This document shows, piece by piece, positions 49,867 through 64,000 of a stretch of DNA of 64,000 nucleotides. The stretch's first letter is position 1. Each line of letters starts with the position of its first letter. Under the pieces are notes generated by a model. That model had not been told where the DNA came from. It saw nothing but the letters and a program-made list of their open reading frames with translations, and did not search any database. This stretch comes from Micromonospora sp. R77 (GTDB taxonomy: Bacteria; Actinomycetota; Actinomycetes; Mycobacteriales; Micromonosporaceae): contig NZ_JALDST010000001.1 of assembly GCF_022747945.1 (NCBI RefSeq), forward strand, positions 1 through 64,000. Direction: 5' to 3'. A program made the position numbers and the translations under genes.

Positions 49867-50177
49867 CGTACCGAGCGGCGGTCGCCCGCCGGTCGCCGAT
49901 CACCGGGCCGGGCCTTCGGGCCCACGGTGGAGCCGATGCCACCGATGAGGCCGATGCCCACCCGGGCCGAACGGCCGATGGCCGCCCGCCGACCGGGAAA
50001 GACGATCTTCGGGGGTCTTTGCACCACCAAGGGCGACTTGCCGGATATTTACGATGGAACCGGTGAGCCTGTTTCATAGTCATCTGGGCTGATTGTGCGG
50101 ACGGATAGCGGCAAATTGTGACTCAAGGCACCAACTATCCCGATGGCAACGGCCGCGTGGCTCTCTAGCCTCGGCGG
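49867..50177. promoter_or_regulatory. 311-nt divergent region with AT-richer core
   Basis: Upstream of both the exonuclease-phosphatase and the lysozyme-like gene. The part 50000-50160 is the least GC-rich noncoding stretch nearby, including GATATTTACGATGG and a CAAATTGTGACTC segment. It probably contains the promoter of the rightward gene. No riboswitch consensus could be matched. Confidence 0.35.
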
Positions 50178-50993
50178 GTGCATCCCGACGACTCCCCCAC
50201 GCAGCAGACGACCGAGGCGCGACCCGCTGACCGCTCCACCGACGTCGCATCAGCCGAACGGATGATCGGACGCCACCGGACCCCGCCGCCGCCCCGGCGA
50301 CGGCCCCTCGCCTCCACCCCGGCCCGGGTCGCCGTGGCCACCGGCGTCAGCTGCTGTCTCGGCCTCGTCGCCGTCGTCGGCGCCCGGGACACCGGGCAAC
50401 GGCACGAGCCCGTCCGGGAGGTCCTCGCGGACCGAGCCGCGGCCGACCAGCGCGCCTCCCGTGACTTCCAGCGCGGTGCCCCGCCCGTCACCCCGACCGC
50501 GGGTGTCCGCCCCACCGCCACCGCGACCCCGGCGCGCCGGCCCGTCACGCCGCAACGGCCCCGCCCGGTCGCCGGACTCGACCAGCGCCAGATGGACAAC
50601 GCCAAGGTCATCGTGGACGTCGGACGGGACATGCGGATGCCGCGCCGCGCCCTGGTGGTGGCGCTCGCCACCGCCATGCAGGAGAGCGACCTGCACAACC
50701 TGGCCAGCGACGTGCTGCCCGAGTCGTACGACTATCCGCACCAGGGCAGCGGCGCCGACCACGACTCGCTCGGGCTGTTCCAGCAGCGCCCGAGCAGCGG
50801 CTGGGGCAGCGTGGCCCAGCTGATGCGCCCCGCGTACGCGGCCCGGGCGTTCTACGCGGCGCTGAAGGAGGTGCCCGACTGGCAGGAGCTCAGCGTCACC
50901 GACGCGGCCCAGGCCGTGCAGAGCTCCGCATTCCCCGGCGCGTACGCCAAGCACGAGAAGCGGGCCACCACGGTGGTCGACGTGCTGGTCTGA
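50178..50993 (+). CDS. Secreted or anchored lysozyme-like cell-wall protein
   Basis: 271 residues from GTG 50178. The basic, Pro-rich N-terminus, a single hydrophobic segment (RVAVATGVSCCLGLVAVVGA, about 49-68) and a Pro/Thr linker up to residue 130 fit an anchored or secreted topology. The C-terminal domain (about 135-270) has AMQESDLHNL and GADHDSLGLFQQRPSSGWGS, typical of lytic-transglycosylase-like folds of actinobacteria, with a candidate catalytic Glu in MQES. It likely acts on peptidoglycan. It is convergent with the DivIVA-like gene, 7 nt between stops. Confidence 0.7.
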   Translation: MHPDDSPTQQTTEARPADRSTDVASAERMIGRHRTPPPPRRRPLASTPARVAVATGVSCCLGLVAVVGARDTGQRHEPVREVLADRAAADQRASRDFQRGAPPVTPTAGVRPTATATPARRPVTPQRPRPVAGLDQRQMDNAKVIVDVGRDMRMPRRALVVALATAMQESDLHNLASDVLPESYDYPHQGSGADHDSLGLFQQRPSSGWGSVAQLMRPAYAARAFYAALKEVPDWQELSVTDAAQAVQSSAFPGAYAKHEKRATTVVDVLV

Positions 50994-51000
50994 GCACGGT

Positions 51001-51528
51001 TCAGGCGGCGCTGCGCTCGCCCGGCGGCTCCTGCGTCGCGTCGGTCGCCGGACCCGCCGCCCGGGTCACCGGGACGCCGGCCGCGGCGGTGGGCGTGTCG
51101 GCCGGCACCGGGTCGACGGCCACGCCGGCCAGCAGGTCGTCCACCCGGGCCGCGCGCCGGTGCCGGGCCAGCAGCGCGGCCTCGAGGTCCCGGCGCGCCC
51201 GCACCGCCTCCGCGTACGCCCGCTCCCGGACCTGACGGGCCTCCTCGCGGGCGGCGTCGAGTTCGCCGCGGGCGCGGGCCAGCAGGTCGGCCGCCTCCCG
51301 CTCGACGGTCGCCGCACCCGCGCGCACCGCCACCACGTCACCGTCCACCGGCCCGGCCAGCAGGTCGCGCAGGACGGTCGCCTCCTGCCGGATCCCGTCC
51401 CACTCGCGGCCCACCCCGGCGGCGCTCTCCGCGCGCGCCGCGAGCCGACTCAACCGGACCGCCAGCTCGTCCAGGCAGGAATCGACCTGCCGCTGGTCGT
51501 AACCGGTCCCGACGACGGAGAACCTCAT
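51001..51528 (-). CDS. DivIVA-like coiled-coil protein
   Basis: 175 residues from ATG 51528 after GGGGGCGAC. The N-terminal segment RFSVVGTGYDQRQVDSCLDE matches the short G-Y-D-x-x-x-V-D lipid-binding start of DivIVA-domain proteins. Residues about 30-145 are highly helical and Ala/Arg/Glu rich, giving a coiled coil (REEARQVRERAYAEAVRARRD-like heptads). The tail is disordered and Thr/Pro rich. DivIVA proteins mark curved membrane and organise polar growth in actinobacteria. This short version may be an accessory. An ATG at 51567 would add 13 residues. Confidence 0.75.
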   Translation of the reverse strand: MRFSVVGTGYDQRQVDSCLDELAVRLSRLAARAESAAGVGREWDGIRQEATVLRDLLAGPVDGDVVAVRAGAATVEREAADLLARARGELDAAREEARQVRERAYAEAVRARRDLEAALLARHRRAARVDDLLAGVAVDPVPADTPTAAAGVPVTRAAGPATDATQEPPGERSAA

Positions 51529-51639
51529 ACTGTCGCCCCCCAGGCAGCTGCTGTTTCCTTCCCCCACCCGCCGATCCTGGACGGTGCCGGGCCCGGCCGG
51601 GGCGGTTGGCGGAAAATGTTCAGCATCCGCAGGTCGCGG

Positions 51640-52086
51640 TCAGCCCCGCTTGGGCAGCACCACCACCCGGCCGAAGAACTCGTCGATCCGGCGCACCACG
51701 TCGTTGAAGTCGTCCAGGTCGATCGGCTTCGTCACGTACGCGTTCGCCTGGAGGGTGTAGCTGCCGACGATGTCGGTGTCCGCGTTCGAGGTGGTCAGCA
51801 CCACGATCGGGATGGTCCGCAGGTCCTCGTCCTGCTTCACCTCGCCGAGCACCTGCCGGCCGTCCATCCGCGGCATGTTCAGGTCGAGCAGGATCACGTC
51901 GGGGCGGTGCGCGTCGGTGTGCCGGCCCTCCCGGCGGAGGAACTCCATCGCCTCCTGGCCGTCGCTGACCACGTCGATGACCTTCTCGACGTCGGAGTCC
52001 GCGAGGGCCTCCTCGATCATCAGGACGTCACCGGGATCGTCGTCCACCACCAGGATGCGGACGGGGCTCGGGGTGCCTGGACCCAT
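51640..52086 (-). CDS. Stand-alone response regulator (Rcp1-like receiver)
   Basis: 148 residues from ATG 52086: only a receiver domain. VDDDPGD at about 11-17, phospho-Asp in VILLDLNMPRMDG, Thr in VLTTSN and Lys in VTKPIDLDDF. The insertion and the extended loop after the first helix are those of the Rcp1/CheY-like group that pairs with phytochrome-type or other hybrid kinases. There is no output domain, so it acts by protein contact. It lies at the edge of the STAS/SpoIIE/B12 island, 73 nt downstream of the STAS gene, and may be part of that pathway. Confidence 0.88.
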   Translation of the reverse strand: MGPGTPSPVRILVVDDDPGDVLMIEEALADSDVEKVIDVVSDGQEAMEFLRREGRHTDAHRPDVILLDLNMPRMDGRQVLGEVKQDEDLRTIPIVVLTTSNADTDIVGSYTLQANAYVTKPIDLDDFNDVVRRIDEFFGRVVVLPKRG

Positions 52087-52159
52087 GGATCTACCTGCTT
52101 CGTCTAGAAGGCGGAACAGCGACCGCACGGTCACCTGTTGGCGGGCGAAATCTAGCCCA

Positions 52160-52504
52160 TCACGAGGCCGACTGCGACCTCGGGTCGGGCACCGCGTCGT
52201 ACGTCAGGACCTCGGCGAGACCGGTCACCTGGAGCACCCGGGCGACCCGCCCGGTCGCGCCGGTGACCCGCAACCAGCCGCCGTCGACGGAGGCGCGGTT
52301 GTCGCCGCGGACGAAGGCCGCGATGCCGGTCGAGTCGCAGAAGGTGAGCTCGGTCAGGTCGACCAGGAACTGCCGGACGCCGTCGGCGACCAGCCCGTCG
52401 ATCGCGGCGTTGAGCTGCGGGGCGCTGCTCATGTCGAGCTCACCGGCGAGGCGCAGGCACACGGGCGCGCCGTCCCGGCGGGCGTACGCGACGGTGAAGG
52501 TCAC
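52160..52504 (-). CDS. STAS domain anti-anti-sigma factor
   Basis: 114 residues starting at GTG 52504. Full STAS domain: VCLRLAGELDMSSAPQLNAA and FLVDLTELTFCDSTGIAAFV, with Ser in D-S-T-G as the phosphorylation site. Unphosphorylated STAS proteins of this kind bind an anti-sigma kinase and release a sigma factor; SpoIIE-type phosphatases reactivate them. It is 72 nt downstream of the B12-binding gene on the same strand and therefore probably within the same regulatory unit. Confidence 0.9.
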   Translation of the reverse strand: MTFTVAYARRDGAPVCLRLAGELDMSSAPQLNAAIDGLVADGVRQFLVDLTELTFCDSTGIAAFVRGDNRASVDGGWLRVTGATGRVARVLQVTGLAEVLTYDAVPDPRSQSAS

Positions 52505-52576
52505 CGTGGCCCCCCTCGCTCCACCGCAGGCGGATGCTTGCAGTGGAGCAAGTATAAGCAGGGGGTCGGGCCGTCC

Positions 52577-53617
52577 TCAGCGCCCCGCCGCCGCCGAGAC
52601 CAGGACGCGGCTCTGCGCCAGGAACGCCGCCGCGCGGGGGAAGTCCCGCAGCAGCTGGCCGTAGTGCTCCAGGGTCAACCCCACCGCGCCGGCCGGCACC
52701 CCCCGACTGGTCAGGATCGACACCAGCCAGCCGACGAACTCGGTGAAGAGCGTGCCGTCGTCGACGAAGAGCGCGGCGGCCAGGAAGTCGACGATGTAGC
52801 CGAGGTCGCTGATGGTCGAGTCGAGCTGCGCGTCGGTGTAGTCGTTGACGCTCGGCACCCGCTCCCGCAGGTCCGCCAGGGCACTGTCGATCAGCTCGCC
52901 GCGCCGCTTCACCAGGCTCGCGTACTCGTCGTCGGCCAGGTGGTCCAGCCGGGCCGGGGTGACCCGGCGCAGCGCCCGCTCGTCGGCCACCAGGTCGGCG
53001 GCCGACGGCGCGTCCGGCGCCCACGGCACCCCGAGCCGGGCCGCCCAACGCCCGTCGTCGCCGAAGCCGCGCCCGCCCACCAGCACCGGCACGTCCGCCC
53101 GGCGGCACGCCTCGATCATCCGGTGCGCGTACGGCAGCCGCATCGGCAGCGCGCAGGCCAGCGCGACCGCGTCGGCGTCGTACCGGTGCAGGTACGACAC
53201 CAGGTGCGCGGCCGGCACGCTGGCCCCGAGGAAGGTCACCTGCCAGCCACGCAGCCGCAGCACCTCCGCCACCAGCCGGGGCGGCAGCGCGTGCCACTCC
53301 CCGTCCATGCAGGCGACCACGATCCGGCCGCGCTCCGGGCGCGGGTTGGCGTACGCGGCGACCGCCGCCACCACCCGCTCGCTGATGTGCGTCGCGGCGT
53401 GCTCCTGGGCCACGCTCCACTCGTTACGCGCCCAGCGCTCCCCCACCTCGGCCTGCGCCGGGGCGACCAGGTCCAGCAGCACCCGCTCGGCGGGCACCCC
53501 CGCCTCGATCAGCCCGAGCGCCACCTCGACCGCGCCGTACTCGTCGGCGTCGGCCAGGAACTCCAGATAGCCGGGGTAGGCGTGGGCCGGGTCGGCCGCC
53601 GTGCTGGTCGCGGTCAC
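52577..53617 (-). CDS. Cobalamin-binding protein with CarH-like sensor module
   Basis: 346 residues from GTG 53617, overlapping the SpoIIE-type gene by 4 bp (GTGA). Residues about 10-95 form a four-helix B12 cap with WARNEWSVAQEH at 62-73, that is W-x9-E-H, the cap signature reported for CarH adenosylcobalamin photoreceptors. Residues about 98-215 are the Rossmann B12 domain with DGEWH (105-109; His109 is the candidate lower ligand) and WQVTFLGASVP. The C-terminal 130 residues are helical and of unknown type (VNDYTDAQLDSTISDLGYIV). No MerR DNA-binding domain is present, so output is through protein contact, probably with the coupled phosphatase. Confidence 0.85.
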   Translation of the reverse strand: MTATSTAADPAHAYPGYLEFLADADEYGAVEVALGLIEAGVPAERVLLDLVAPAQAEVGERWARNEWSVAQEHAATHISERVVAAVAAYANPRPERGRIVVACMDGEWHALPPRLVAEVLRLRGWQVTFLGASVPAAHLVSYLHRYDADAVALACALPMRLPYAHRMIEACRRADVPVLVGGRGFGDDGRWAARLGVPWAPDAPSAADLVADERALRRVTPARLDHLADDEYASLVKRRGELIDSALADLRERVPSVNDYTDAQLDSTISDLGYIVDFLAAALFVDDGTLFTEFVGWLVSILTSRGVPAGAVGLTLEHYGQLLRDFPRAAAFLAQSRVLVSAAAGR

Positions 53618-55374
53618 GCGCTGCTCTCCCTCGGGTCGTCGGCGGGGGCCCGGTTGGGCACCGCGTGCAGGTGGCGGGGCGCCCGGGTGCCGGTGCCGGT
53701 CGCCCGGAGCGCCAGCACGGCGATGTCGTCGTGGTCGCCGTGCGCCAGCCAGTCGCAAGTCACCTGCTCGACCCGCTCGGCGAGCGCCGGCGCCGGCATG
53801 CGCGCGCAGCCGGAGACGGCGGTCAGCAGCCGGTCGGTGCCGAACTGCTCGTCGCCCCGCCGCCCGCCGCGCGCCTCGGTGACCCCGTCGCTGTAGAGCA
53901 GGCAGGTCTCGCCGGGCTCCAGCCGGACGGTGACCTCCCCGATGCGGGGGTCGGGGACGACGCCGATGAGCATTCCGCTCAGCGGCACCGCCTCGACCTC
54001 GCCGGAGGCCCGCAGCAGCAGCGGTGGGAGATGGCCACCGCCGGCCATGGTGAGGGTCAGGCTGCCGTCGCGGTGCGGGCGCACCACGCCCAGCACCATC
54101 GTGGCGAACCGGCCCTGGCCGTGCGCCTGGGTGGTCTCCAGCAGCGCGTCGTTGAGCAGTTTCAGCAGCCGGCCCGGTTGCGACTCGACCCGGTGCAGCG
54201 CCTGGAGGCACTGGCGGAGCTGCCCGGTGAAGACCGCCGCCTCCACCCCCTTGCCGGAGACGTCGCCGAGGAAGAAGACCGAGCCGCCGTCGGCGAGCCG
54301 GTGCGAACCGTAGAAGTCGCCGCCGATGCGCAGTCCGGCCTGCGCCGGCCGGTACGCCGTACCCCACTGCACGCCGGTCGCCGGGGTCGGCTCGACCGGC
54401 ACCAGGCTGGCCTGGAGGGTGTCGGCGACCTCGGCCTGGTCGCGATAGAGCACCGCGGTGGTCAGGGCCGCCCCGGCCCGGCCGGCGAAGGCGCGGACCA
54501 GGTCGATGTCGGCCTCGTCGTACCAGCGGGCGGTGCGCCGGGCGACCAGCAGCACGCCGACCGGATCGTCACGACCGGGCAGCGGCACCACCCGGGCGGT
54601 GGCCTCGCCGGTCGTCAGCCCGGGCAGCCAGCCGGCCTCCACCGCCTGCTCGACCAGCCAGTCCAGGGTGTGCGGCTCGACGCCGCCGAGGCCCTCGGCG
54701 ATCGCCGCCGGCAGCGCCGTCGAGCTGAGCATGCCGCTGTCCACCGCCGGGGCCTCGTCGTCGCTGCGGGAGGCCCGCCACCAGCGGGCCCGCCCCGAGC
54801 GCGGGGCCAGCACCAGCACGGCGACGTCGGCGAGGGTGGGCACGGCGAGCCGGACCACGGCGGCGGCGGCCCGGTCGGGGTGCAGCGGGTTGCCGAGCTT
54901 CTCCCCGACCACCGCCAGGAACGCTGAGCGGGCCCGCTCGGCCAGCAGCGCGTCCGCCCGGCTGACGCTCTCGGTGACGTCCTCGACGTACCAGCAGCAG
55001 CGGGCGGCCGAGAGCGGGACCTGGCGCATCCGCAGCCGGCGCTCCCGGTGGGTGAACTCGGCCGGCCCGCTGCCGGTGAACGGTGCCAGGCCGGTGGCCT
55101 CGAGCACCGCGCCGGCGCGGACCTCGGGCAGCAGCCGCTCGGCGACGGGGCTGACGTGCCGCACCACGCCGTCGGCGTCGCAGACGATCAGGCCCTCACG
55201 GAAGTGCTCGACCACCTCCGACCAGTCGGGCGTGGCGAGGTCGCGGTCCGGAGCCAACGGGGGCAGGGCGGACCGGGCCGGGACGGCGGCGGACCGGGCC
55301 GGGGCCCGTGCGGCACTCGGCGTGGAGATCCGTCCGTCGCCCGGGTCCCAGTCCCTGACGTCGGCAGCAGTCAC
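53614..55374 (-). CDS. PAS-GAF-SpoIIE (PP2C) phosphatase
   Basis: 586 residues from GTG 55374; a GTG at 55389 is an alternative. A PAS-like domain (about 50-140; EGLIVCDADGVVRHVSPVAE) is followed by a GAF domain (about 160-320). The SpoIIE/PP2C phosphatase domain (about 345-570) has metal motifs GGDFYGS and FLGDVSGKGVEAAV, then AGGGHLPPLLL and LLYSDGVTEA. Such enzymes dephosphorylate STAS anti-anti-sigma factors. The B12 gene is coupled downstream; STAS genes lie on both sides. The protein therefore probably integrates a PAS/GAF signal and a B12/light signal to set STAS phosphorylation. Confidence 0.9.
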   Translation of the reverse strand: MTAADVRDWDPGDGRISTPSAARAPARSAAVPARSALPPLAPDRDLATPDWSEVVEHFREGLIVCDADGVVRHVSPVAERLLPEVRAGAVLEATGLAPFTGSGPAEFTHRERRLRMRQVPLSAARCCWYVEDVTESVSRADALLAERARSAFLAVVGEKLGNPLHPDRAAAAVVRLAVPTLADVAVLVLAPRSGRARWWRASRSDDEAPAVDSGMLSSTALPAAIAEGLGGVEPHTLDWLVEQAVEAGWLPGLTTGEATARVVPLPGRDDPVGVLLVARRTARWYDEADIDLVRAFAGRAGAALTTAVLYRDQAEVADTLQASLVPVEPTPATGVQWGTAYRPAQAGLRIGGDFYGSHRLADGGSVFFLGDVSGKGVEAAVFTGQLRQCLQALHRVESQPGRLLKLLNDALLETTQAHGQGRFATMVLGVVRPHRDGSLTLTMAGGGHLPPLLLRASGEVEAVPLSGMLIGVVPDPRIGEVTVRLEPGETCLLYSDGVTEARGGRRGDEQFGTDRLLTAVSGCARMPAPALAERVEQVTCDWLAHGDHDDIAVLALRATGTGTRAPRHLHAVPNRAPADDPRESSA

Positions 55375-55606
55375 CAGCTTGAGCCCCACTCCTTGTCGAC
55401 ATCCGCGGCGTCGATACCCGCGGTCCACCGGAAACAGCCAGTGTGTTCCAATCTCTTCGCCCCACCCTACGCCGGTATGCCGGGACCGCCACTCCTACGG
55501 GCGCGTGAGCCGGCCGGGCGCTCGTCACCGGGCGGGGTGGTTGCCGGGTTGTTACGATCTGGACGGCCCTTGTTTCCCGATCGACAGCCGACGGAAAGGC
55601 GTGAGT

Positions 55607-55999
55607 GTGGTGTCCCAACGGAGGAAGCCCGAGGCGACCCCGCTGACCATCTCCGTCGACCGCACCGACCCGCACGCCCCGGTCGTCCTGATCGGCGGTG
55701 ACCTGGCCTTCACCACCGCCGCACCGCTGCGCACCGAGGTGGACCGGCTGTTGGCCGAGGCTCCGCCCGTCATCGTGCTGGACTTCGCCGATCTGCTCTT
55801 CATCGACAGCACCGGCCTGGCGGTGATCGTGCACGCCTGGCGGGAGGGTCAGCAGGGTGGCACCGCCCTCCGGCTGCGTGCCACGCCGCGCTTCCTGGAG
55901 ACGATCCTCGACATGACCGGTGTCACCGGCCTGCTCGCCCGGCCGCAGCCCGGCGAGCGCGCCGACCTGTCCCAGGCGGACACCGCCACGTCGGCCTGA
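55607..55999 (+). CDS. STAS domain anti-anti-sigma factor
   Basis: 130 residues from GTG 55607 (AAAGG 7 nt upstream; GTG 55601 and 55610 are alternatives). STAS core: HAPVVLIGGDLAFTTAAPLR, then VIVLDFADLLFIDSTGLAVI, where Ser in D-S-T-G is the phosphosite. A short acidic tail follows. It is divergent from the SpoIIE-type phosphatase, which would be the natural activator, and is followed 47 nt later by another STAS gene. Confidence 0.88.
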   Translation: MVSQRRKPEATPLTISVDRTDPHAPVVLIGGDLAFTTAAPLRTEVDRLLAEAPPVIVLDFADLLFIDSTGLAVIVHAWREGQQGGTALRLRATPRFLETILDMTGVTGLLARPQPGERADLSQADTATSA

Positions 56000-56046
56000 G
56001 CCACCCCGGGGTTTCCCCGGCGGGACGGGCTGGGAACAATGGAGTC

Positions 56047-56394
56047 ATGCCCGCCCAGCTGTTGACCATCGAGGTGCACCGGCTCGACGCCGGTCGCGCC
56101 CGACTCCGGCTGGCCGGCGACTTGGACTTCGACACCGCGCCACAGCTGGTGGCCGCCGCCGCCGAGCTGCGCCGGGACGGCTGCCAGGAGCTGCTGCTCG
56201 ACTTCGCCGAGGTCGGGCTCTGTGACTCCTCCGGGCTCAGCGCGCTCGTGCTGATCCACCGCGCCGGCACCGGGCCCATCCGGCTCAGCGGCACCAACCC
56301 GCAGGTCCAGCAACTGCTGGACCGCACCGGCCTGGGCGAGCTGCTGGCGGTGGCACCCCCCGTCGCCCGCGACGACACCCGCGAGGTCGGCTGA
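56047..56394 (+). CDS. STAS domain anti-anti-sigma factor
   Basis: 115 residues. Compact STAS domain with ARLRLAGDLDFDTAPQLV and LLLDFAEVGLCDSSGLSALV; the phosphosite is Ser in D-S-S-G. A 6-bp hairpin (56006-56020) in the short space after the previous STAS gene may attenuate read-through. Three STAS proteins with intact phosphosites within 4 kb imply either several sigma targets or graded response around one phosphatase. Confidence 0.9.
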   Translation: MPAQLLTIEVHRLDAGRARLRLAGDLDFDTAPQLVAAAAELRRDGCQELLLDFAEVGLCDSSGLSALVLIHRAGTGPIRLSGTNPQVQQLLDRTGLGELLAVAPPVARDDTREVG

Positions 56395-56579
56395 CAGAGT
56401 GCGGCGACCCGTCGGGCCGACATTTCATTCATGATCGTCTGCACTCCGTGGTCACGACACGCCGGGCCGACGTGCCGCCACCATCAGACGATCTTCGTCG
56501 GCCGGGAGGCCGCTGAGACCGGGACCACACTCCGTCGTGGCGGGCGGTGGGCCACCCGGGCGGCGCCCCGGAGAGGGGT

Positions 56580-56612
56580 GGCCCCCGACCCTGGGACCAG
56601 GGGTCGGGGGCC
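56580..56612 (-). terminator. Hairpin terminator after small hypothetical gene
   Basis: Arms 56580-56594 and 56597-56612 pair over about 15 bp with one bulged base (GGCCCCCGACC core). It lies 12 nt past the stop of the minus-strand gene at 56624. Confidence 0.7.
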
Positions 56613-56623
56613 GGGAGAAAGGC

Positions 56624-56938
56624 TCAGGCGGCCGGGACGGGTTGCAGGCGCGGGCCGCTCTCCCGCAGCTGCTCCGCGCCGGGCGGCTCGGCGTCCTCCG
56701 GTGGCCCGGAATCGGGCGTCTGGAAGAGATAGCGGACGAACTCCCCACCCGCCTCGTTGTCGTCCGCTCCGGGCCACTGCCCGACACAGTCGACGCCGAC
56801 CACCTCACGGCCGGTGCCGTCGGCCTCCTCCAGCAGTGCCCAGAGGGACACCGGATAGCAGCGGGTGGCCTCGGGCGTCACCTGCCAGCGGGCGTACCAG
56901 CCGGGTCGGGCGGGGACGATCTCGACGATCCTCTTCAT
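56624..56938 (-). CDS. Small hypothetical protein
   Basis: 104 residues from ATG 56938, with the strong ribosome site GGAAGGGAAGG. Begins MKRIVEIVPARPGWYARWQV and contains YPVSLWALLEEADG and VVGVDCVGQWPGADD; the tail is Pro/Glu rich. Coding character is clear and it has its own hairpin terminator. No family recognised; no membrane segment. Confidence 0.65.
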   Translation of the reverse strand: MKRIVEIVPARPGWYARWQVTPEATRCYPVSLWALLEEADGTGREVVGVDCVGQWPGADDNEAGGEFVRYLFQTPDSGPPEDAEPPGAEQLRESGPRLQPVPAA

Positions 56939-57134
56939 GACGACCTTCCCTTCCGCGTGCGTCGGAAGATTTCCGGTCCGTCCCGAGCGTGCCGGCCGGG
57001 CGGGTGACCGGCCCTCACCCGCTGCGAATGAAGCCGGCCGGCCGGATCGTCCGGGGCGGCCGGCCCGCCGTTTCGGTGCCGGGCACCCGGGAAGGCTCAC
57101 CGTCGAGCAGTCCGACGAGGAACGAGGTGTGACG

Positions 57135-58103
57135 ATGCGCAAGCAGATGGAGGGCGACAACCAGCGCCGTCGAGCGCTGGCCCGCCAGGCCCGGGAGCAG
57201 GGTCGGCAGCCGAGCGAGACCGGCGCGAGCCTGAGCGCGTCCAAGCAGGTCACCTCCCTGGACCGGGGGCGGCGGACCGGTCCCCCACCGGCCGGGCGGC
57301 ACAAGCCGGACAGCACGCGCGGCGGACCCGCCCCGCCGCCGGCCGGCATGCCGGAGCGCCCCCGGCCGCAGCCGCGGCCCGGCCCGGCGGTGACCACCCT
57401 CGGCTACCGCGATCTGGTCGACGACGTGGGTCGCCGCGCCGGTGTCGACTTCTCCACCGCGAAGGTGGGTGCCGAGGCGACCGTGCTCGCGCTGGCCTGG
57501 GCGCTGGACGAGGCGGCCCGCGAGCGGCTGCTGGAGGCGGTGCCGGTGAAGCTGCACGACGTCGTGCCGGTGGACGGCATCGAACGGCACGAGGAGCTGC
57601 CCGGCTTCCTGGCCGAGGTGGCCCGGATCAGTGGTCGCAGCCCCGAGCAGGCCCGCTATCAGGCGGAGGCGACCCTCGCCGCGCTGGCCGAGGCGGACGG
57701 CGACCTGGTCGAGTCGCTCCGCGTACCGGACGGGTTGCGGGAGTTGCTGACGCCGCCGGCACCCGGCGGCGGCCTGGTGGGGCCGGCGTCCGCCGCCGCG
57801 CCGCTGACCGACCAGGAGCTGCGGGAGGCCCTCACTCGGCTGCCGTACTGGTCGAGTGACCGGCAGTCGCTGGTGCGGACCATCGAGCTGCCCGCCGGCA
57901 ACCTGGACCGGGTGCTCGACCGGATCGACCAGCTCCGGGTGGACCTCGGACGCGGCCCGCAGATCGGCCGGCCGGAGCCGGACAGCGCCGTGCTGACCGT
58001 GCGCAACCGCCAGGTCGACGGGGTGACTGCCGCGGACGTCGACCTGGCCCGGCGGATCGACGACGCCATCGAGGAGGCCGGCGCGGGGATGGCCGCCGGC
58101 TGA
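57135..58103 (+). CDS. DUF2267 domain fused to a degenerate pterin dehydratase-like domain
   Basis: 322 residues. A basic, Pro-rich N-terminus (about 1-85) is followed by a DUF2267 domain (about 90-215; YRDLVDDVGRRAGVDFSTAK, RHEELPGFLAEVARISG). The C-terminal region (about 228-318) resembles PCD/DCoH (LTDQELREALTRLPYWSSD to GVTAADVDLARRIDDAIEEA). In active PCD the His-His-Pro and later T-H-x-x-x-G-L-T motifs are catalytic; here the corresponding places read LGRGPQIGRP and NRQVDGVTAADVDLA, so dehydratase activity is unlikely. It may work as a dimerisation or binding domain, as DCoH does. It ends at the 58109 hairpin. Confidence 0.75.
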   Translation: MRKQMEGDNQRRRALARQAREQGRQPSETGASLSASKQVTSLDRGRRTGPPPAGRHKPDSTRGGPAPPPAGMPERPRPQPRPGPAVTTLGYRDLVDDVGRRAGVDFSTAKVGAEATVLALAWALDEAARERLLEAVPVKLHDVVPVDGIERHEELPGFLAEVARISGRSPEQARYQAEATLAALAEADGDLVESLRVPDGLRELLTPPAPGGGLVGPASAAAPLTDQELREALTRLPYWSSDRQSLVRTIELPAGNLDRVLDRIDQLRVDLGRGPQIGRPEPDSAVLTVRNRQVDGVTAADVDLARRIDDAIEEAGAGMAAG

Positions 58104-58108
58104 CCGAG

Positions 58109-58137
58109 GGGCCGGCGGGCGGTGCGCCCGCCGGCCC
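58109..58137 (+). terminator. 13-bp perfect hairpin terminator
   Basis: Arms 58109-58121 and 58125-58137 with a GTG loop, 5 nt after the stop of the DUF2267-PCD gene and ahead of the spermidine-synthase-like gene. Confidence 0.75.
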
Positions 58138-58157
58138 ACCCGGTACCGTGGCCCGCC

Positions 58158-58946
58158 ATGGACAGCCCCGCCGACGAGCTCACGCTGGTCGTCGACCCGG
58201 CCCGGCGGACCGGGCGTACGCTGCTGGCCGGCGGCGTGGCCCAGTCGTACGTGGACGTCGTCGACCCCCGGCACCTGCACTTCGAGTACGTCCGCCGGAT
58301 GGCCGCGGTGCTCGACCTGGCCGCCCCGCCCGGCCGGCCGCTGGAGGTGCTGCACCTGGGCGGTGGCGCGCTCACCCTGCCCCGCTGGCTGGCCGCCACC
58401 CGCCCCGGGTCGGCGCAGCGGGTGGTGGAGCGGGATCCGGCGGTGGTCGACCTGGTCCGCCGGGAGTTGCCGGCACTGCCGCCGGAGGTGGAGGTGACGG
58501 TCGGCGACGCCCGGGACGTGGTGACCGCCGCCCCGCCCGCCCGGTACGACGTGGTGCTCGCCGACATCTACCGGGCCGCCCGGATGCCCGCCCACGTGGC
58601 CGGCGTCGAGTTCGTCACCGAGGTTGCCCGGACGCTGCGCCCGGAGGGCGTCTACCTGGTCAACGTGACCGACCTGCCCCCGCTGACCTTCTCCCGTACC
58701 CAGGTGGCGACGCTGCGCGCCGTCTTCGCCGACGTGTGCCTGGTGGCGGACCGCCGGATGCTGCGCGGCCGCCGGTACGGCAACCTGGTGCTCGCCGCCG
58801 CGCACCGCCCCGACCGACTGCCGGTACGCCGGCTGGCGGCCCGGGTGGCCGCCGATCCGCTGCCCGGCGGGGTGCTGCACGGCGCGGCCCTGGCCGCCTT
58901 CGTCTCCGGTGCCCGCCCGGCCACCGACGCCACCCTCGCCCGCTGA
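58158..58946 (+). CDS. Spermidine synthase-like methyltransferase-fold protein
   Basis: 262 residues. Rossmann SAM-fold: LEVLHLGGGALTLPRWLAAT (about 62-81), then VVERDPAVV with the acidic ribose contact, VTVGDARDVV and YDVVLADIYRAA. Closest to the SpeE-like (fused MnmC/spermidine synthase) group often encoded singly in actinobacteria. The polyamine site residues cannot be confirmed, so it may be a methyltransferase. It is the last core gene before the NB-ARC/WD40 insertion. Confidence 0.75.
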   Translation: MDSPADELTLVVDPARRTGRTLLAGGVAQSYVDVVDPRHLHFEYVRRMAAVLDLAAPPGRPLEVLHLGGGALTLPRWLAATRPGSAQRVVERDPAVVDLVRRELPALPPEVEVTVGDARDVVTAAPPARYDVVLADIYRAARMPAHVAGVEFVTEVARTLRPEGVYLVNVTDLPPLTFSRTQVATLRAVFADVCLVADRRMLRGRRYGNLVLAAAHRPDRLPVRRLAARVAADPLPGGVLHGAALAAFVSGARPATDATLAR

Positions 58947-58983
58947 CATCGACCAGCCGCCGAACACCCGGGGTCCCAACTCC

Positions 58984-59074
58984 GAGACTGCGTTAGGTAG
59001 TCTCCCGAACGCATCCGGTGGAGAGCTGGCGAGAACGAACCGGGGCGACGACACACGTCTTCGGTCCTAAGGAC
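58984..59074. promoter_or_regulatory. Palindromes upstream of the NB-ARC/WD40 gene
   Basis: Between the spermidine-synthase-like stop and the next gene (217 nt) there is a 6-bp inverted repeat GAGACT/AGTCTC (58984-58989 and 58999-59004) and an 11-bp palindrome GTCCTAAGGAC (59064-59074). Composition is less GC-rich than around it. These are plausible operator or promoter elements; no factor is known. Confidence 0.3.
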
Positions 59075-59163
59075 GGCCCTCGGCTCCGGCAGTCCATACG
59101 GCAGGGTTGACGACCTCGGGTACGGAGACCTCGCTGGCAACCTCTAGCGTTACAGGGGATCAG

Positions 59164-62100
59164 ATGGCACGTGGGCGCCGGGCACAGGCCGCCAGGTATG
59201 CCCTGTACCTCGTACTCACGGTCATGATCACAAACCTGACCGGCTTAGCGATCAACATTCTGTCGTCCGGTGAGGGGAAGCTACCTTTTGGCTTGGAGAG
59301 CCTCCGCGACCATGCCGTCGAGTGGACCGTCGGTCTGACGCTGGCAATGGGCGCACTGGCGCTGGTGATGTGGCGGCGCCAGGGGGACAGTTCACCGCAG
59401 CAGAGCGATCCACCGCCCCCCACTCTGCAGGAACCACCGGGTTGGGTGGTGAAACGACCAGCCGAAGTGGACCATGTAGTTCACGGCCTGATTAGGGGTG
59501 ACGGTCAGGCGGTCGGAATTACGACGGCGCTGCAGGGGGCCGGCGGATTCGGCAAGACGACGCTCGCCACCGTCGTATGCGCGGACCCTCGCATCCGCCG
59601 CCGGTTCCGAGGTCGCGTGTACCAGGTCACCCTGGGCCGGGACCTTGTCTCGCCGGAGGCCATCGCCAGCAGGGTGAACGACACCATTCGCATCATCACC
59701 GGAGAGGACACCAACTACTCCGACCCGCGACTCGCCGGACAGCACCTTGGCCGGCTGCTGCACGACCGGCCCCGGATGCTGCTGCTCGTCGACGATGTCT
59801 GGAACCGCGACCAGGTGTCTCCGTTCCTTCTCGGCGGTCCGAGATGTGCTCGGCTCGTGACAACCCGGGTTTCTTCCGCGCTCCCTGGTGACGCCACCAC
59901 GATCAAGGTCGACCAGATGTCGCCGGAGCAAGCACGACAGGTGCTCGTGTGGTCGCTGCCCAGCCTTCCACACCAGACGGTGGAGCAACTGCTAGCCGCG
60001 ACGGGGCGGTGGCCCTTGCTGCTACGCCTGGTGAACCGGGTAATCGCCAACGCCGTCGAGGAGAATCGTGATCCGGCCAGGACGGCCGCGGACATCCTTC
60101 GGCTCCTGAGTGAAGGGGGCCCCGCAGAAATCGACGGCCTCACCGACTCCTGGCAGGAACTGGACCTCAACATTCCGGAACAACGCGCGCGAGCGGTGCG
60201 CGCGACCATCGAGGCCAGCACCAAACTGCTCGATAACGGCGGTGACCAGCGCCTCGCCGAACTGGGGATCTTCGTGGAGGACGAGTCGATCCCTATCCGG
60301 GCGATTGCAGTGCTGTGGGAGCGGACCTCGTCTCTGACCCGGACGGAGTCCGAGACGCTGTGCCGCAGAATGGTCCAACTCGCGCTGGTGCGCCACGCCT
60401 CAACCGACGGCACCTCGTTCGCGATCCACGATGTAGTCCGCGACTTCCTTCGCGCCGAGCTCGGCGCAGACAAACTTGAGGCACTCAACAAGACGCTCGT
60501 TGAGGCAGTTGCGCAACGGCTGCCCCGGGTTGCGGCAGCGGCAGCGGACTCGTCCTCGCGGATTCGAATTGCCTGGTGGGAGCTCAAACGGGAAGATCGC
60601 TACCTCTGGGATCACCTCATCACACACCTGGTGGCAGCCGGCCGGGCCGACGAGGGTGAAGAACTCGCCGGTAACCTGGTGTGGGCGGGACAACGGCTGA
60701 TGCGTTTCGGTCCCGCCGCCCCCTACAGCGATCTCGCAGCCTTCGACACCCCAGGAAGTCGGTTGCTCCGGGCCGACCTCGGTCGCGCCTCACACCTGCT
60801 CGCACCGACCGATCCCCCAGAAGCGGTCATCCACATCCTGCACAGTCGCCTTCGCGACCGATCGAGTTGGCAGGCACAGGTGAAGCAACTCGACAGCGTC
60901 ACGGTCGGCCCGCGCTTGATACACCGCTGGGCCATGCCGGACCTGCCGCACCCGGCAATGCGACGCAACCTGGTGGACCACGATGGCGCGGTCCTCGCCG
61001 TCGCCATGGCGTCTGACGGCGCTTGGCTAGCGACGTCCGGCGAGGACGCAAAGGTCCGACTGTGGGACAGCGCGACCGGTCAGATCAGGGCGACTCTGGA
61101 CGGCCACACCGGTCCCGTTCGGTTGATCCGTCTGAGCGCCGACGACAAACGGGTGGTCACGGCCAGCGGGGACGACGTGCGGATCTGGGAGGCGTCGAGC
61201 GGACGAATGCTCATGCGCCTACCCGTTCAGGGCGGAGTGGTTAACGACTTGGCCCTAGCGGCCGACGGGACATGGGTGGTGACAGCTGGCAGCGACCCTG
61301 CCGCGCGGATCTGGGACACGGTGAGCGGACGGCTAATACGCAAGCTTCCCGGCCACGCCTCGACGGTCACGGCCGTTACGATGCCTCCGGACAACTCCTG
61401 GATCGCTACCAGCAGTGGATGCACTGTACGGATCTGGGACGCCTCGACGGGACAACTCAGCGCGACTTGCACCGGCCATCGCGGAGAGGTCACTTTGCTT
61501 TCGGCCTCGCCCGACGGTCGATGGCTGGCATCCGCTGGAAAGGACGAGGCCGCGCGAGTATGGAGCAGTTCAGACGGGTCTCCGCTCGCTGTACTTCATT
61601 CCGGTTCCGGCTGGTTGTCGGCTATTGCCTTCGGAGCCGACAGCAGCTGGGTCGCCACCGCCAGCAAAGCTTTCGTCCATCTCTGGAGGCTCCATACACC
61701 CGACAAGCCGGTCGTCCTAGACACATCGGCGGGCCACGTGGTGGGTCTGCGTTCGTCGCCCACGTCCCGGTGGCTGGCCAGCGCGGGCAGCGATGCGACC
61801 ATTCGCCTCTGGAACACCAGATCTGGTCGCTCGATCGCGACGCTCGGTGGCCACGCGGACCGGCTGACGGCCCTCCGCGTCGCCCCTGACGCGTCCTGGC
61901 TGGTCTCCACCAGCCGAGACGGCACTGTTCGAACGTGGGACGTCGAGGCAGCGAGCGAGCAGGTCACCCGTACAGGTGACAACAGACTCGCCCACATCAG
62001 CGCGGCGGCCGATGGCTCTTGGATCGTCGCTACGGGAGGCGGTGATGGCGCTCGTGTATGGAAAGTGTCGGATGCCAGAAAACTGCGGGTGATCCACCAC

Positions 62101-62877
62101 GATCCCCTCAAGAAGGTGGGCTCCGGCGCTGAGTCGACCCTGAACGCGATCGGCGTCACCGGCGGTTTCCTCGCCACCTTCGGCAACGACGAGAGAATCC
62201 GCATCTGGGACCCCTTCGTAGAATCGGACGTGCATGAACTACGCCTAGACGAGAACGAGCGGGCGGGCCGGCGCGTCAAGGCCATCGCATCCGATCCATC
62301 GGGGCCCTGGTTAGTGGCCCACGACTCGGAGAACAACCTTCGCGCATGGAATCTTGAGCACCAACAGCAGATTGACGGGAGAATCCTGGACAAGGCCCTT
62401 ACATTCAAGATCGGTGCGGACCGGACGGCGGCTCTTGCCGTACGCCAAGGGACACTGCTCATTGGTGAGGCCAACGGGTCAGTCCGCACCTGGGAATTGG
62501 AGACCGACTCTGTCCGATGGTCCACGGTGGGTACAGGTCCGGTCACCGCCGTAGAATTTTTGCCGGAACAGGGCATAATCGTCACCTCCAGCAACGCTGC
62601 TGCAGTAGTGATCTGGCGGGAAGGCCAGCCGAAGCCTGTTACGGAGCTCGCCACCGACGGTAAGGTGACCGGCCTCGTCGCGACACTCGACTGCCACCAC
62701 CTTGTCGTCACCACAGCTCGGGGAAGCATGGAAGTCTTCGCCGTGGAGTCCTGGAGGCGGGTGACCGTAATGCGCATCGACGGTGACCTCACCTGCTGCA
62801 CCCGAATTCCCGGCAGCAACCTCATTGCGGTGGGCGGTTTGCGCGGTCTATACATGTTCGAGCTCCGGACGGACTAG
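59164..62877 (+). CDS. Membrane-anchored NB-ARC/WD40 STAND protein (Apaf-1-like architecture)
   Basis: 1237 residues from ATG 59164, with AGGGG 6 nt upstream (a frame extension to 59107 is possible). Order: two helices (about 12-33 and 54-70) with a short loop. NB-ARC follows, with P-loop GAGGFGKTT (Lys131), kinase-2 LLLVDDVW (Asp210-211), R-L-V-T-T-R sensor (230-235), a GLPL-like GRWPLLL (281-287) and an MHD-like IHDVVRDF (421-428). A helical arm (about 430-595; YLWDHLITHLVAAGR) resembles the Apaf-1 helical domain. About 14-15 WD40 repeats run from about 600 to the end (repeated GHxxxV...VRIWD). STAND proteins oligomerise when a ligand releases the sensor; the N-terminal helices could be the effector. 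Codon use differs from neighbours (AGA, ATA, CTA, AAA; TTA at 59245 and 62311). Confidence 0.9.
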   Translation: MARGRRAQAARYALYLVLTVMITNLTGLAINILSSGEGKLPFGLESLRDHAVEWTVGLTLAMGALALVMWRRQGDSSPQQSDPPPPTLQEPPGWVVKRPAEVDHVVHGLIRGDGQAVGITTALQGAGGFGKTTLATVVCADPRIRRRFRGRVYQVTLGRDLVSPEAIASRVNDTIRIITGEDTNYSDPRLAGQHLGRLLHDRPRMLLLVDDVWNRDQVSPFLLGGPRCARLVTTRVSSALPGDATTIKVDQMSPEQARQVLVWSLPSLPHQTVEQLLAATGRWPLLLRLVNRVIANAVEENRDPARTAADILRLLSEGGPAEIDGLTDSWQELDLNIPEQRARAVRATIEASTKLLDNGGDQRLAELGIFVEDESIPIRAIAVLWERTSSLTRTESETLCRRMVQLALVRHASTDGTSFAIHDVVRDFLRAELGADKLEALNKTLVEAVAQRLPRVAAAAADSSSRIRIAWWELKREDRYLWDHLITHLVAAGRADEGEELAGNLVWAGQRLMRFGPAAPYSDLAAFDTPGSRLLRADLGRASHLLAPTDPPEAVIHILHSRLRDRSSWQAQVKQLDSVTVGPRLIHRWAMPDLPHPAMRRNLVDHDGAVLAVAMASDGAWLATSGEDAKVRLWDSATGQIRATLDGHTGPVRLIRLSADDKRVVTASGDDVRIWEASSGRMLMRLPVQGGVVNDLALAADGTWVVTAGSDPAARIWDTVSGRLIRKLPGHASTVTAVTMPPDNSWIATSSGCTVRIWDASTGQLSATCTGHRGEVTLLSASPDGRWLASAGKDEAARVWSSSDGSPLAVLHSGSGWLSAIAFGADSSWVATASKAFVHLWRLHTPDKPVVLDTSAGHVVGLRSSPTSRWLASAGSDATIRLWNTRSGRSIATLGGHADRLTALRVAPDASWLVSTSRDGTVRTWDVEAASEQVTRTGDNRLAHISAAADGSWIVATGGGDGARVWKVSDARKLRVIHHDPLKKVGSGAESTLNAIGVTGGFLATFGNDERIRIWDPFVESDVHELRLDENERAGRRVKAIASDPSGPWLVAHDSENNLRAWNLEHQQQIDGRILDKALTFKIGADRTAALAVRQGTLLIGEANGSVRTWELETDSVRWSTVGTGPVTAVEFLPEQGIIVTSSNAAAVVIWREGQPKPVTELATDGKVTGLVATLDCHHLVVTTARGSMEVFAVESWRRVTVMRIDGDLTCCTRIPGSNLIAVGGLRGLYMFELRTD

Positions 62878-62923
62878 TACATCAAGTAGGTTTTCCGCGC
62901 CCCCGGCCGGGTAGCCGCGCCGG

Positions 62924-64000
62924 ATGAGCAGAGCCGAGGACCGGGGCACCGCCCGCCGGGCGCTGATCGTCATCGGTCTGGTGCTGGTCACCCTGCTCGC
63001 GCTGGCCCTGGTCTGGGCCACCCGACGGGTGCTGATCTGGCTGCTGGTGGCGGTCTTCTTCGCGGTGGCGTTGAAACCGCTGGTGGACCGGGTGGAGCGG
63101 CGCTGGGTGCGCCGTCGCGCGCTGGCCACCCTGCTGGTCTTCCTGGCGGTGTTCGGGCTGCTCGGCGCGCTCGCCGCGGGGATCGTGCTGCCGTTGCTGG
63201 ACGAGGTGGGGCGGTTCGCCGACCGGGCGCCGGAGCTGCTGCGCGAGGCCCGCGCCGGCCGGGGACCGATCGGCGAGGTGCTGCAACGGCTGCAGCTGCG
63301 GCAGTACGCCAACAGCCACTCCCACCAGATCAGGGAGTACGGCGCACAGCTGCGGCAGCCGGCGGTGGGGCTGGTCCGGGGCGTGCTGGAGACCCTCGCC
63401 GGCCTGGTGACGGTGATCGTGCTGGCGTACCTGATGGTGCTGGAGGCCCCGAAGCTCATCGCCGGGACGCTCGCCCTGGTCGGCGACGGCCCGGCGGAGC
63501 GGCTGCGCCGGGTCGGCCGGGACACCTCCCGCACGATCACCGGCTATCTCAGCGGCAACCTGCTGATCAGCGTGATCTGCGGCGGTCTGACCTTCCTGGT
63601 GCTCTTCGTCACCGGCGTGCCGTTCGCGGCGGTGATCGCGCTGCTGGTGGCGATCGCGGACCTGATCCCGCTGGTCGGCGCGACGCTGGGGGCGATCCTC
63701 GCGGCCGGGGCCGGTTTCCTGCACTCGCCGGGCACCGGCGTGGTGGTGCTGGTCTTCTTCGTCGTCTACCAGCAGGTGGAGAACCACCTGCTGCAACCGC
63801 TGATCATGTCCCGCGCGGTCCGGTTGAACCCGCTGACCGTGCTGGTCAGCGTGCTGCTCGCCGCCGAGCTGGCCGGCCTGGTGGGTGCCCTGCTGGCCAT
63901 CCCGGCGGCGGGCGTCGGGCAGATCCTGCTGCGGGAGTTCGCGCCGGCCGGGCTGCGGACCGTGCCCGCACCGGCCAGCGACGACGATTCGGCCGGCGGC
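62924..64000 (+). CDS. AI-2E family transporter (3' end outside window)
   Basis: 359 codons are visible with no stop. About eight membrane helices in the AI-2E/PerM pattern: RALIVIGLVLVTLLALALVW near the start, LIWLLVAVFFAVALKPLVDR, and a large soluble loop (about 90-150). The family-typical block is TITGYLSGNLLISVICGG, then ADLIPLVGATLGAILAAG, QQVENHLLQPLIMSRAVRLN and LAAELAGLVGALLAIPAAG. Members are exporters or Na+/H+-linked permeases; the AI-2 name is historical and the substrate here is unknown. It starts 46 nt after the NB-ARC/WD40 stop. Confidence 0.88.
   Translation, partial: MSRAEDRGTARRALIVIGLVLVTLLALALVWATRRVLIWLLVAVFFAVALKPLVDRVERRWVRRRALATLLVFLAVFGLLGALAAGIVLPLLDEVGRFADRAPELLREARAGRGPIGEVLQRLQLRQYANSHSHQIREYGAQLRQPAVGLVRGVLETLAGLVTVIVLAYLMVLEAPKLIAGTLALVGDGPAERLRRVGRDTSRTITGYLSGNLLISVICGGLTFLVLFVTGVPFAAVIALLVAIADLIPLVGATLGAILAAGAGFLHSPGTGVVVLVFFVVYQQVENHLLQPLIMSRAVRLNPLTVLVSVLLAAELAGLVGALLAIPAAGVGQILLREFAPAGLRTVPAPASDDDSAGG

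Follow-up and report, generated by a model that had tools for sequence, protein, structure and literature searches.

A one-gene, predicted membrane-tethered NB-ARC/WD40 protein with an Apaf-1-like core in Micromonospora sp. R77

The first 64,000 nucleotides of contig NZ_JALDST010000001.1 of Micromonospora sp. R77 (hereafter the window) carry a lone gene at 59164..62877 on the plus strand, whose 1237-residue product is laid out as two predicted transmembrane helices (2TM), an NB-ARC ATPase, an HD2 arm and a double WD40 propeller. Its core is Apaf-1-like, and we consider it reasonably probable that the protein is a single-gene, membrane-tethered sensor of the STAND (AP-ATPase) class, of the NLR or apoptosome type, that oligomerises on ligand binding, damages the membrane and most likely acts against phage. 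It would probably serve as an alarm that, once triggered, damages the cell producing it. What is new is a hairpin-bearing variant of the long-known NB-ARC STAND proteins, built to work like an NLR or an apoptosome. The features to which we refer are the following.

58947..62888, no strand: insert of about 3.94 kb, ends placed within a few bp, holding only this gene and a 217-bp leader
59154..59159, plus: ribosome-binding-site-like AGGGGA before the ATG, from the sequence
59164..62877, plus: 2TM - NB-ARC - HD2 - double WD40 protein, 1237 aa
59209..59265, plus: predicted transmembrane helix 1, aa 16-34 (hydropathy 1.81; AlphaFold helix 2-34)
59314..59370, plus: predicted transmembrane helix 2, aa 51-69 (hydropathy 1.69; AlphaFold helix 51-76)
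59386..59457, plus: Pro-rich linker, aa 75-98, ending in the family signature P-x-W-V-V-x-R (P92, W94 and R98 invariant in 16 aligned rows)
59536..59559, plus: P-loop GAGGFGKT with Lys131 (invariant in the 16 rows)
59773..59802, plus: kinase-2/Walker B RMLLLVDDVW (D210 and D211 invariant in the 16 rows)
59851..59868, plus: RLVTTR motif, aa 230-235 (L231 and T233-R235 invariant in the 16 rows)
60004..60021, plus: GLPL-like GRWPLL, aa 281-286 (W283, L285 and L286 invariant in the 16 rows)
60424..60432, plus: MHD-like IHD, aa 421-423 (H422 and D423 invariant in the 16 rows)
60481..60948, plus: helical arm, counterpart of Apaf-1 HD2, aa about 440-595 (structure alignment through the arm; modelled helices)
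60949..61950, plus: first WD40 propeller, modelled with 8 blades, aa 596-929
61951..62874, plus: second, faster-diverging WD40 propeller, about 7 blades from 27 modelled strands at lower confidence, aa 930-1237

The open reading frame is genuine: its ATG start follows AGGGGA, and 1253 database proteins match the product at E 1e-3 or better (7989 candidates scored). Names among the best 120 of these 1253 relatives are generic ('NB-ARC domain-containing protein', 'WD40 repeat protein', 'hypothetical protein') or missing. The database entry for the protein itself starts 20 aa downstream of our start; the alignment to the closest relative begins at the Met of the 1237-aa start. Pfam NB-ARC scores 51.4 bits against a cut-off of 23.5 and WD40 scores 194.5 bits, and the protein belongs to the NB-ARC/AP-ATPase (STAND) group by profile, by all five motifs and by its NBD-HD1-WHD fold. 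The initial annotation had described a stand-alone gene with a full set of NB-ARC motifs and named Lys131 as the P-loop lysine; both statements stand, the key motif residues being invariant across the 16-row alignment and the profile search placing the ATPase inside NB-ARC rather than outside it.

Among solved structures, the best match of the N-terminal half is Apaf-1, aligned over its residues 112-596, and the structure matches to the core are headed by Apaf-1, Dark, CED-4, NRC and other chains of plant NLR resistosomes; the absence of a family from these PDB match lists carries no weight. By sequence, the best core match among solved structures is AfsR (E 1.7e-8). Some 15 WD40 blades are modelled, an 8-bladed propeller followed by a roughly 7-bladed one, the latter by strand count and at lower confidence. 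This agrees with the 14-15 repeats and two propellers first proposed, and the Apaf-1-like helical arm proposed with them is recovered as an HD2 counterpart that aligns to Apaf-1. As modelled, the protein is thus a concrete bacterial parallel to Apaf-1 that extends to the helical arm and the two propellers. It does not qualify as an Apaf-1 orthologue, for lack of a CARD: a CARD or death-fold N-terminus was ruled out by hydropathy, by the structure model and by the lack of any Pfam match at E 0.05 in the first 124 aa.

The N-terminal helices noted at first are not CARD-like but are predicted to form a two-helix membrane hairpin, the two hydrophobic segments (aa 16-34 and 51-69) being modelled as helices 2-34 and 51-76. 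Basic residues flank it, MARGRRAQAARY before the first segment and WRRQ after the second. Basic residues mark the cytoplasmic side (the positive-inside rule), so both hairpin ends are probably cytoplasmic. By hydropathy, and as raw counts without a shuffled control, 96 of the best 119 homologues have at least one hydrophobic segment within 130 aa before the P-loop, 70 have at least two and 23 have none, 16 of these 23 having fewer than 90 aa ahead of the P-loop. For one of the short homologues, P0074 (plasmid hit H1), the match starts 279 bp upstream of the annotated start, so some missing hairpins appear to be start-site errors. Among 80 genomic loci, all actinobacterial by title and kept from 197 that encode a relative, a P-loop is recognisable in 78 and a hydrophobic segment in 68 of those 78, the open frame being taken back to the previous stop regardless of the true start. 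A search with a hairpin only (P0099 aa 1-85) brought up 7 proteins, the query among them, every one with NB-ARC, and showed no other use of the hairpin at that sensitivity. Proteins P0124-P0126, two of them clusters named Streptomyces albidoflavus, have a similar hairpin with NB-ARC, and their listed Pfam domains include no WD40 (PF07676 or none). Sensors other than WD40 may thus accompany the hairpin.

In other relatives, different domains occupy the position of the hairpin. P0021, P0034 and L131 (Spongiactinospora) carry an N-terminal Trypsin_2 domain, and L136 (Actinomadura craniellae) and L144 (Frankia) an N-terminal DUF4062, each match exceeding its curated Pfam cut-off; the N-terminal pieces of L113, L142, P0045 and P0026 gave no Pfam match at E 0.05. 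Pfam was used here since phmmer with such pieces was uninformative for effector classes, the shared linker matching most rows. On a quickly built 103-row core tree with transmembrane labels set by hydropathy, the trypsin label accounts for 3 changes (at least 2 of them forced by well-supported branches) and DUF4062 for 2; label shuffles all give equally few changes, trypsin and DUF4062 rows being few, so that the tree shows nesting and not a rate. P0021 and P0034, the 2 trypsin rows of a supported 14-row set, are nested there among 9 transmembrane and 3 other rows. The N-terminus thus appears to behave as an exchangeable effector slot, an effector nature being suggested because a peptidase or a DUF4062/TIR-like domain replaces the hairpin in relatives. 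DUF4062 is reported as an anti-phage NADase in a preprint (PMC13174449). The fusions of DUF4062 to the NB-ARC/WD40 chassis (L136:9413-14101 and L144:9278-13255) are bacterial look-alikes of the animal TEP1/NWD layout.

The same slot bears on whether the protein might be a non-lethal membrane scaffold, the hairpin just anchoring a WD40 platform that recruits an effector encoded elsewhere. Apaf-1, itself a recruiter, is a precedent, and conservation is low across the hairpin region, which is 28, 25 and 36% identical to P0002, P0003 and P0005; peptidase or TIR-like domains nevertheless sit in the hairpin slot of relatives, and no partner gene recurs among the neighbours sampled. We consider this alternative very improbable.

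The sensor diverges faster than the core. Against the closest congeneric copy (G295), identity is 55% in the hairpin, 74% in the core, 63% in propeller 1 and 48% in propeller 2; against the Micromonospora relative P0002 it is 59, 49 and 31% for the core and the two propellers, and the hairpin, at 28%, is no better kept than propeller 2. Of the homologue pairs, the 25 whose cores resemble each other most were compared; these have members in common and are not independent, and in all 25 the WD40 region is less alike than the core (mean 76 against 87%). The WD40 region spans 412-765 aa in 119 homologues, and mean internal repeat identity is 0.48 in homologues against 0.14 in the protein of the window, whose gene has only short DNA repeats. 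The arrays of P0057, P0038, P0024 and P0007 are near-homogenised, with 0.75-0.80 identity at a one-repeat shift, a pattern that points to recent repeat turnover.

Fast WD40 divergence, the range of array lengths and this turnover would also suit a kin or non-self recognition system, or an anti-plasmid system, with the propellers recognising proteins that are foreign or come from non-kin, and the hairpin killing whichever compartment has been fused or invaded. Relatives do occur on 14 plasmid records at E 1e-60, 12 from Streptomyces and the others, more distant at 26-28% identity, from Acaryochloris and Rhizobium, and WD40 NLRs in fungal heterokaryon incompatibility provide a parallel (PMC10907252). 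The repeats of the window's own protein are not homogenised, however, and we hold this explanation to be decidedly unlikely.

The gene lies in an insert whose site is well defined. In blastn comparisons with six loci from five congeners (G223, G215, G127, G116 and G045), alignment runs to 58939-58947 and resumes from 62889, with a gap of 4 to 108 bp in the congeners in place of the insert. The GC content of the insert is 0.649, against 0.735 for the window. Its flanks, an aminopropyltransferase-like gene and an AI-2E-transporter gene, are 45-143 bp apart on one contig and one strand in 22 of 40 congeners; in G228 they are 1.8 kb apart, and the other 17 of the 40 lack a close orthologue of one gene or of both, G209 at the edge of a contig. 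In G228 (L184, G228:C115, 1439-3105) the site holds an apparent TetR-type regulator and an aldo/keto reductase, judging by sequence. Because other genes are found there, the flanking site appears to accept unrelated inserts; a reading of it as a defence hotspot was set aside. No second plausible gene, integrase or transposase was seen in the insert when its translations were read by eye, no terminal repeats of at least 14 nt were found at its ends (shorter duplications being outside the search), and a sigma-70-type promoter gave no match. The gene was probably acquired horizontally.

The distribution of the family is patchy and its sites differ. Of 160 congeners, 10 have a match to the core at E 1e-40, as do 2 of 396 genomes across the phylum, the genome of the window counted in both; at the family level (query aa 1-625) 42 of 200 genomes have a match. 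A contig scan with the single protein found no relative and was repeated with an alignment as the query. Relatives group across genera in the core tree, the copy of Micromonospora G271, for example, with Dactylosporangium, and nothing that flanks the G295 copy matches window positions 50000-64000. That copy adjoins a GHKL-ATPase protein and two alpha-amylase-family proteins. The GHKL ATPase (L156:5267-7225; HATPase_c_3, with a sub-threshold HSDR_N-like end) is a possible defence gene; PADLOC at this locus gave only the GlgB model, on the two amylase-type genes, and no match for the ATPase. Within the host genome, eight NB-ARC matches lie above the cut-off, and a whole-protein search found no protein elsewhere matching through both NB-ARC and WD40.

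Among clustered predicted genes of the 80 loci, the commonest after the family itself are ABC transporters (13 of 80) and response regulators (8 of 80), generic by sequence; the gene caller is rough, missing the family's own gene in 15 of the 80 loci, and by its preference for high third-position GC it under-samples low-GC neighbours. From 88 loci (one without a recognised target), 148 of 287 eligible neighbours were sampled, and no Pfam family at E 1e-8 occurs in more than 2 of the 148. Strict co-occurrence with a housekeeping pathway, which would have spoken against an immune role, is accordingly not seen: no housekeeping neighbour recurs in the 80 loci. Among these neighbours PADLOC matched 42 families at E 1e-10, the 25 best including AbiEi with 3, mad3 with 2 and singles such as LmuB, mad6 and MkoA; one protein accounts for each of many PD-T4-6 models. 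Controls (148 of 177 genes, from 20 stretches of genomes of the window's own taxonomic family and not genus-matched) gave 6 families, namely mad3 with 4, mad8 with 3 and dGTPase, GlgB, mad2 and mad1 with 1 each. The PADLOC model HEAT-ARM_XIII matched L136, L131 and P0021, with its best stretch in the WD40 part, and was taken as a propeller match rather than membership. On plasmid NZ_CP108986.1 (L061) a relative lies about 2.6 kb from a DUF2399 gene followed by an SbcC/MukB-like gene, with a Ku gene between; we take the DUF2399 and SbcC/MukB-like pair to be Wadjet-like. In the window itself, positions 51640-56394 encode, on both strands, receiver, STAS, B12-binding-like and GAF/PP2C-like open reading frames that, from translations only, resemble a partner-switching signalling block.

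We also weighed whether the protein is a membrane-tethered STAND regulator of development or stress (sporulation, antibiotic onset or envelope stress), an AfsR-like NB-ARC protein without a DNA-binding domain. The only two NCBIfam matches, AfsR and FxSxx_TPR, both fall under cut-off, AfsR heads the core matches by sequence as given above, and many hosts, such as Streptomyces and Actinoplanes, are actinobacteria of mycelial habit. The AfsR model nevertheless reaches 44.3 bits against a cut-off of 1430 and spans aa 102-437 only, so that the curated AfsR/SARP test fails, and no DNA-binding domain occurs among the 25 best of 44 Pfam families matching the protein. Restriction to 10 of 160 congeners, a one-gene insert at a non-conserved site, the lack of a recurrent gene among the neighbours sampled and the peptidase and TIR-like domains in the same slot of relatives all argue against such a regulator, which we judge unlikely.

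Several observations weigh against an anti-phage, membrane-damaging sensor. Defence genes are not clearly enriched beside family genes: AbiEi is found in 3 of 148 neighbours against 0 of 148 controls, and other models match the controls too. PADLOC 2.0.0 (2023 library) at E 0.01 found no family for the protein, its core or P0002, and aa 1-600 have no homologue in 50,697 phage records. Four Lentzea species keep the family gene in a common setting, so it is not always mobile. The faster WD40 divergence is also compatible with relaxed constraint, the hydropathy of the hairpin helices is modest, the transmembrane counts rest on hydropathy, and both structure models are middling (predicted template-modelling score, pTM, 0.56 and 0.57). 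The suggestion in the initial annotation of an immune or cell-fate sensor holds in part: the Apaf-1-like NB-ARC/double-WD40 STAND layout, effector exchange, patchiness and sensor divergence all fit it, and the linkage of homologues to known defence genes, which it proposed to survey, is not clearly raised over a rough control.

If the protein is such a sensor, at rest the double propeller and HD2 arm would keep an inner-membrane-anchored NB-ARC in a closed, ADP-bound state. The propellers would bind a ligand, most probably a protein from an invader or some product of infection; NB-ARC would swap ADP for ATP, and the proteins would form a ring under the membrane that gathers the transmembrane hairpins, 14 helices in an Apaf-1-like heptamer. 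The clustered hairpins could then permeabilise or depolarise the membrane, and the resulting cell death or arrest would limit phage spread. We assign sensing to the propellers because of the architecture and fast divergence, and switching and oligomerisation to NB-ARC because of its intact motifs and Apaf-1-like fold; for the membrane breach we rely on the hairpin and its exchange for a peptidase or TIR-like domain, and on nothing else. The scheme is drawn from the anatomy of the protein and from the way in which Apaf-1 and bacterial STAND proteins work, described in part in PMC13174449, PMC7159879 and PMC10907252; the ligand, ring, membrane damage and anti-phage role are inferred.

Such a family, in which swapping of the death-executing part is visible and here has brought in a membrane hairpin, would provide a testable mechanism for a large set of generically named database proteins, and a single gene makes testable whether the animal apoptosome arose from a bacterial immune chassis. 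More tentatively, Actinobacteria may possess a mobile 'apoptosome' that needs no separate executioner, an Apaf-1-type wheel forming under the membrane with its clustered hairpins as the pore. Since hairpin, peptidase and TIR-like NADase domains replace one another repeatedly where the CARD would be, Apaf-1 could then represent one more such swap, for a CARD, on a full NBD-HD1-WHD-HD2-double-propeller chassis pre-existing in bacteria. We regard this whole proposal as rather doubtful. Bacterial AP-ATPases with WD40 repeats were reportedly outlined two decades ago, by Koonin and Aravind in 2002 and by Leipe in 2004; no paper on a 2TM-NB-ARC-WD40 family was found among the best-listed open-licence full texts, supplementary tables being outside that scope.

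Apaf-1, and likewise fly Dark, has the NBD-HD1-WHD-HD2 core and two WD40 propellers in common with the protein. Apaf-1 has a CARD where ours has a transmembrane hairpin, and works with a caspase, whereas no caspase gene was seen adjoining the gene described here; the propellers of Apaf-1 have 7 and then 8 blades, an order that differs from the 8 and then, at lower confidence, about 7 modelled here. The actinobacterial regulators AfsR and FxSxx_TPR have an NB-ARC of related sequence. AfsR carries a SARP DNA-binding domain and TPRs, which are not found in our protein; it has a WD40 sensor instead. Avs and bNACHT are bacterial anti-phage STAND proteins reported in work of Gao in 2022 and Kibby in 2023, and their ATPases belong to STAND clades other than NB-ARC. 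Their sensors are of the TPR type, whereas ours is WD40, and no PADLOC model matches our protein; common to all is the tripartite plan of N-terminal effector, STAND ATPase and variable C-terminal sensor, as set out in PMC10907252. The CARD-NLR systems of Lysobacter and of Caulobacter (LypABC), described in PMC13236601, likewise have an NLR-like ATPase, tied there to lytic cell death, but are multi-gene, with a CARD, a trypsin-like peptidase and a gasdermin or other effector, whereas here there is one gene and no CARD. DUF4062-STAND-WD40 proteins (TEP1, NWD1; Swarozyc), described in the preprint PMC13174449, follow the same logic, an Apaf-1-like chassis with an effector domain where the CARD would be; the TEP1 ATPase is there termed NACHT, not NB-ARC, and the member in the window carries a membrane hairpin in that position.

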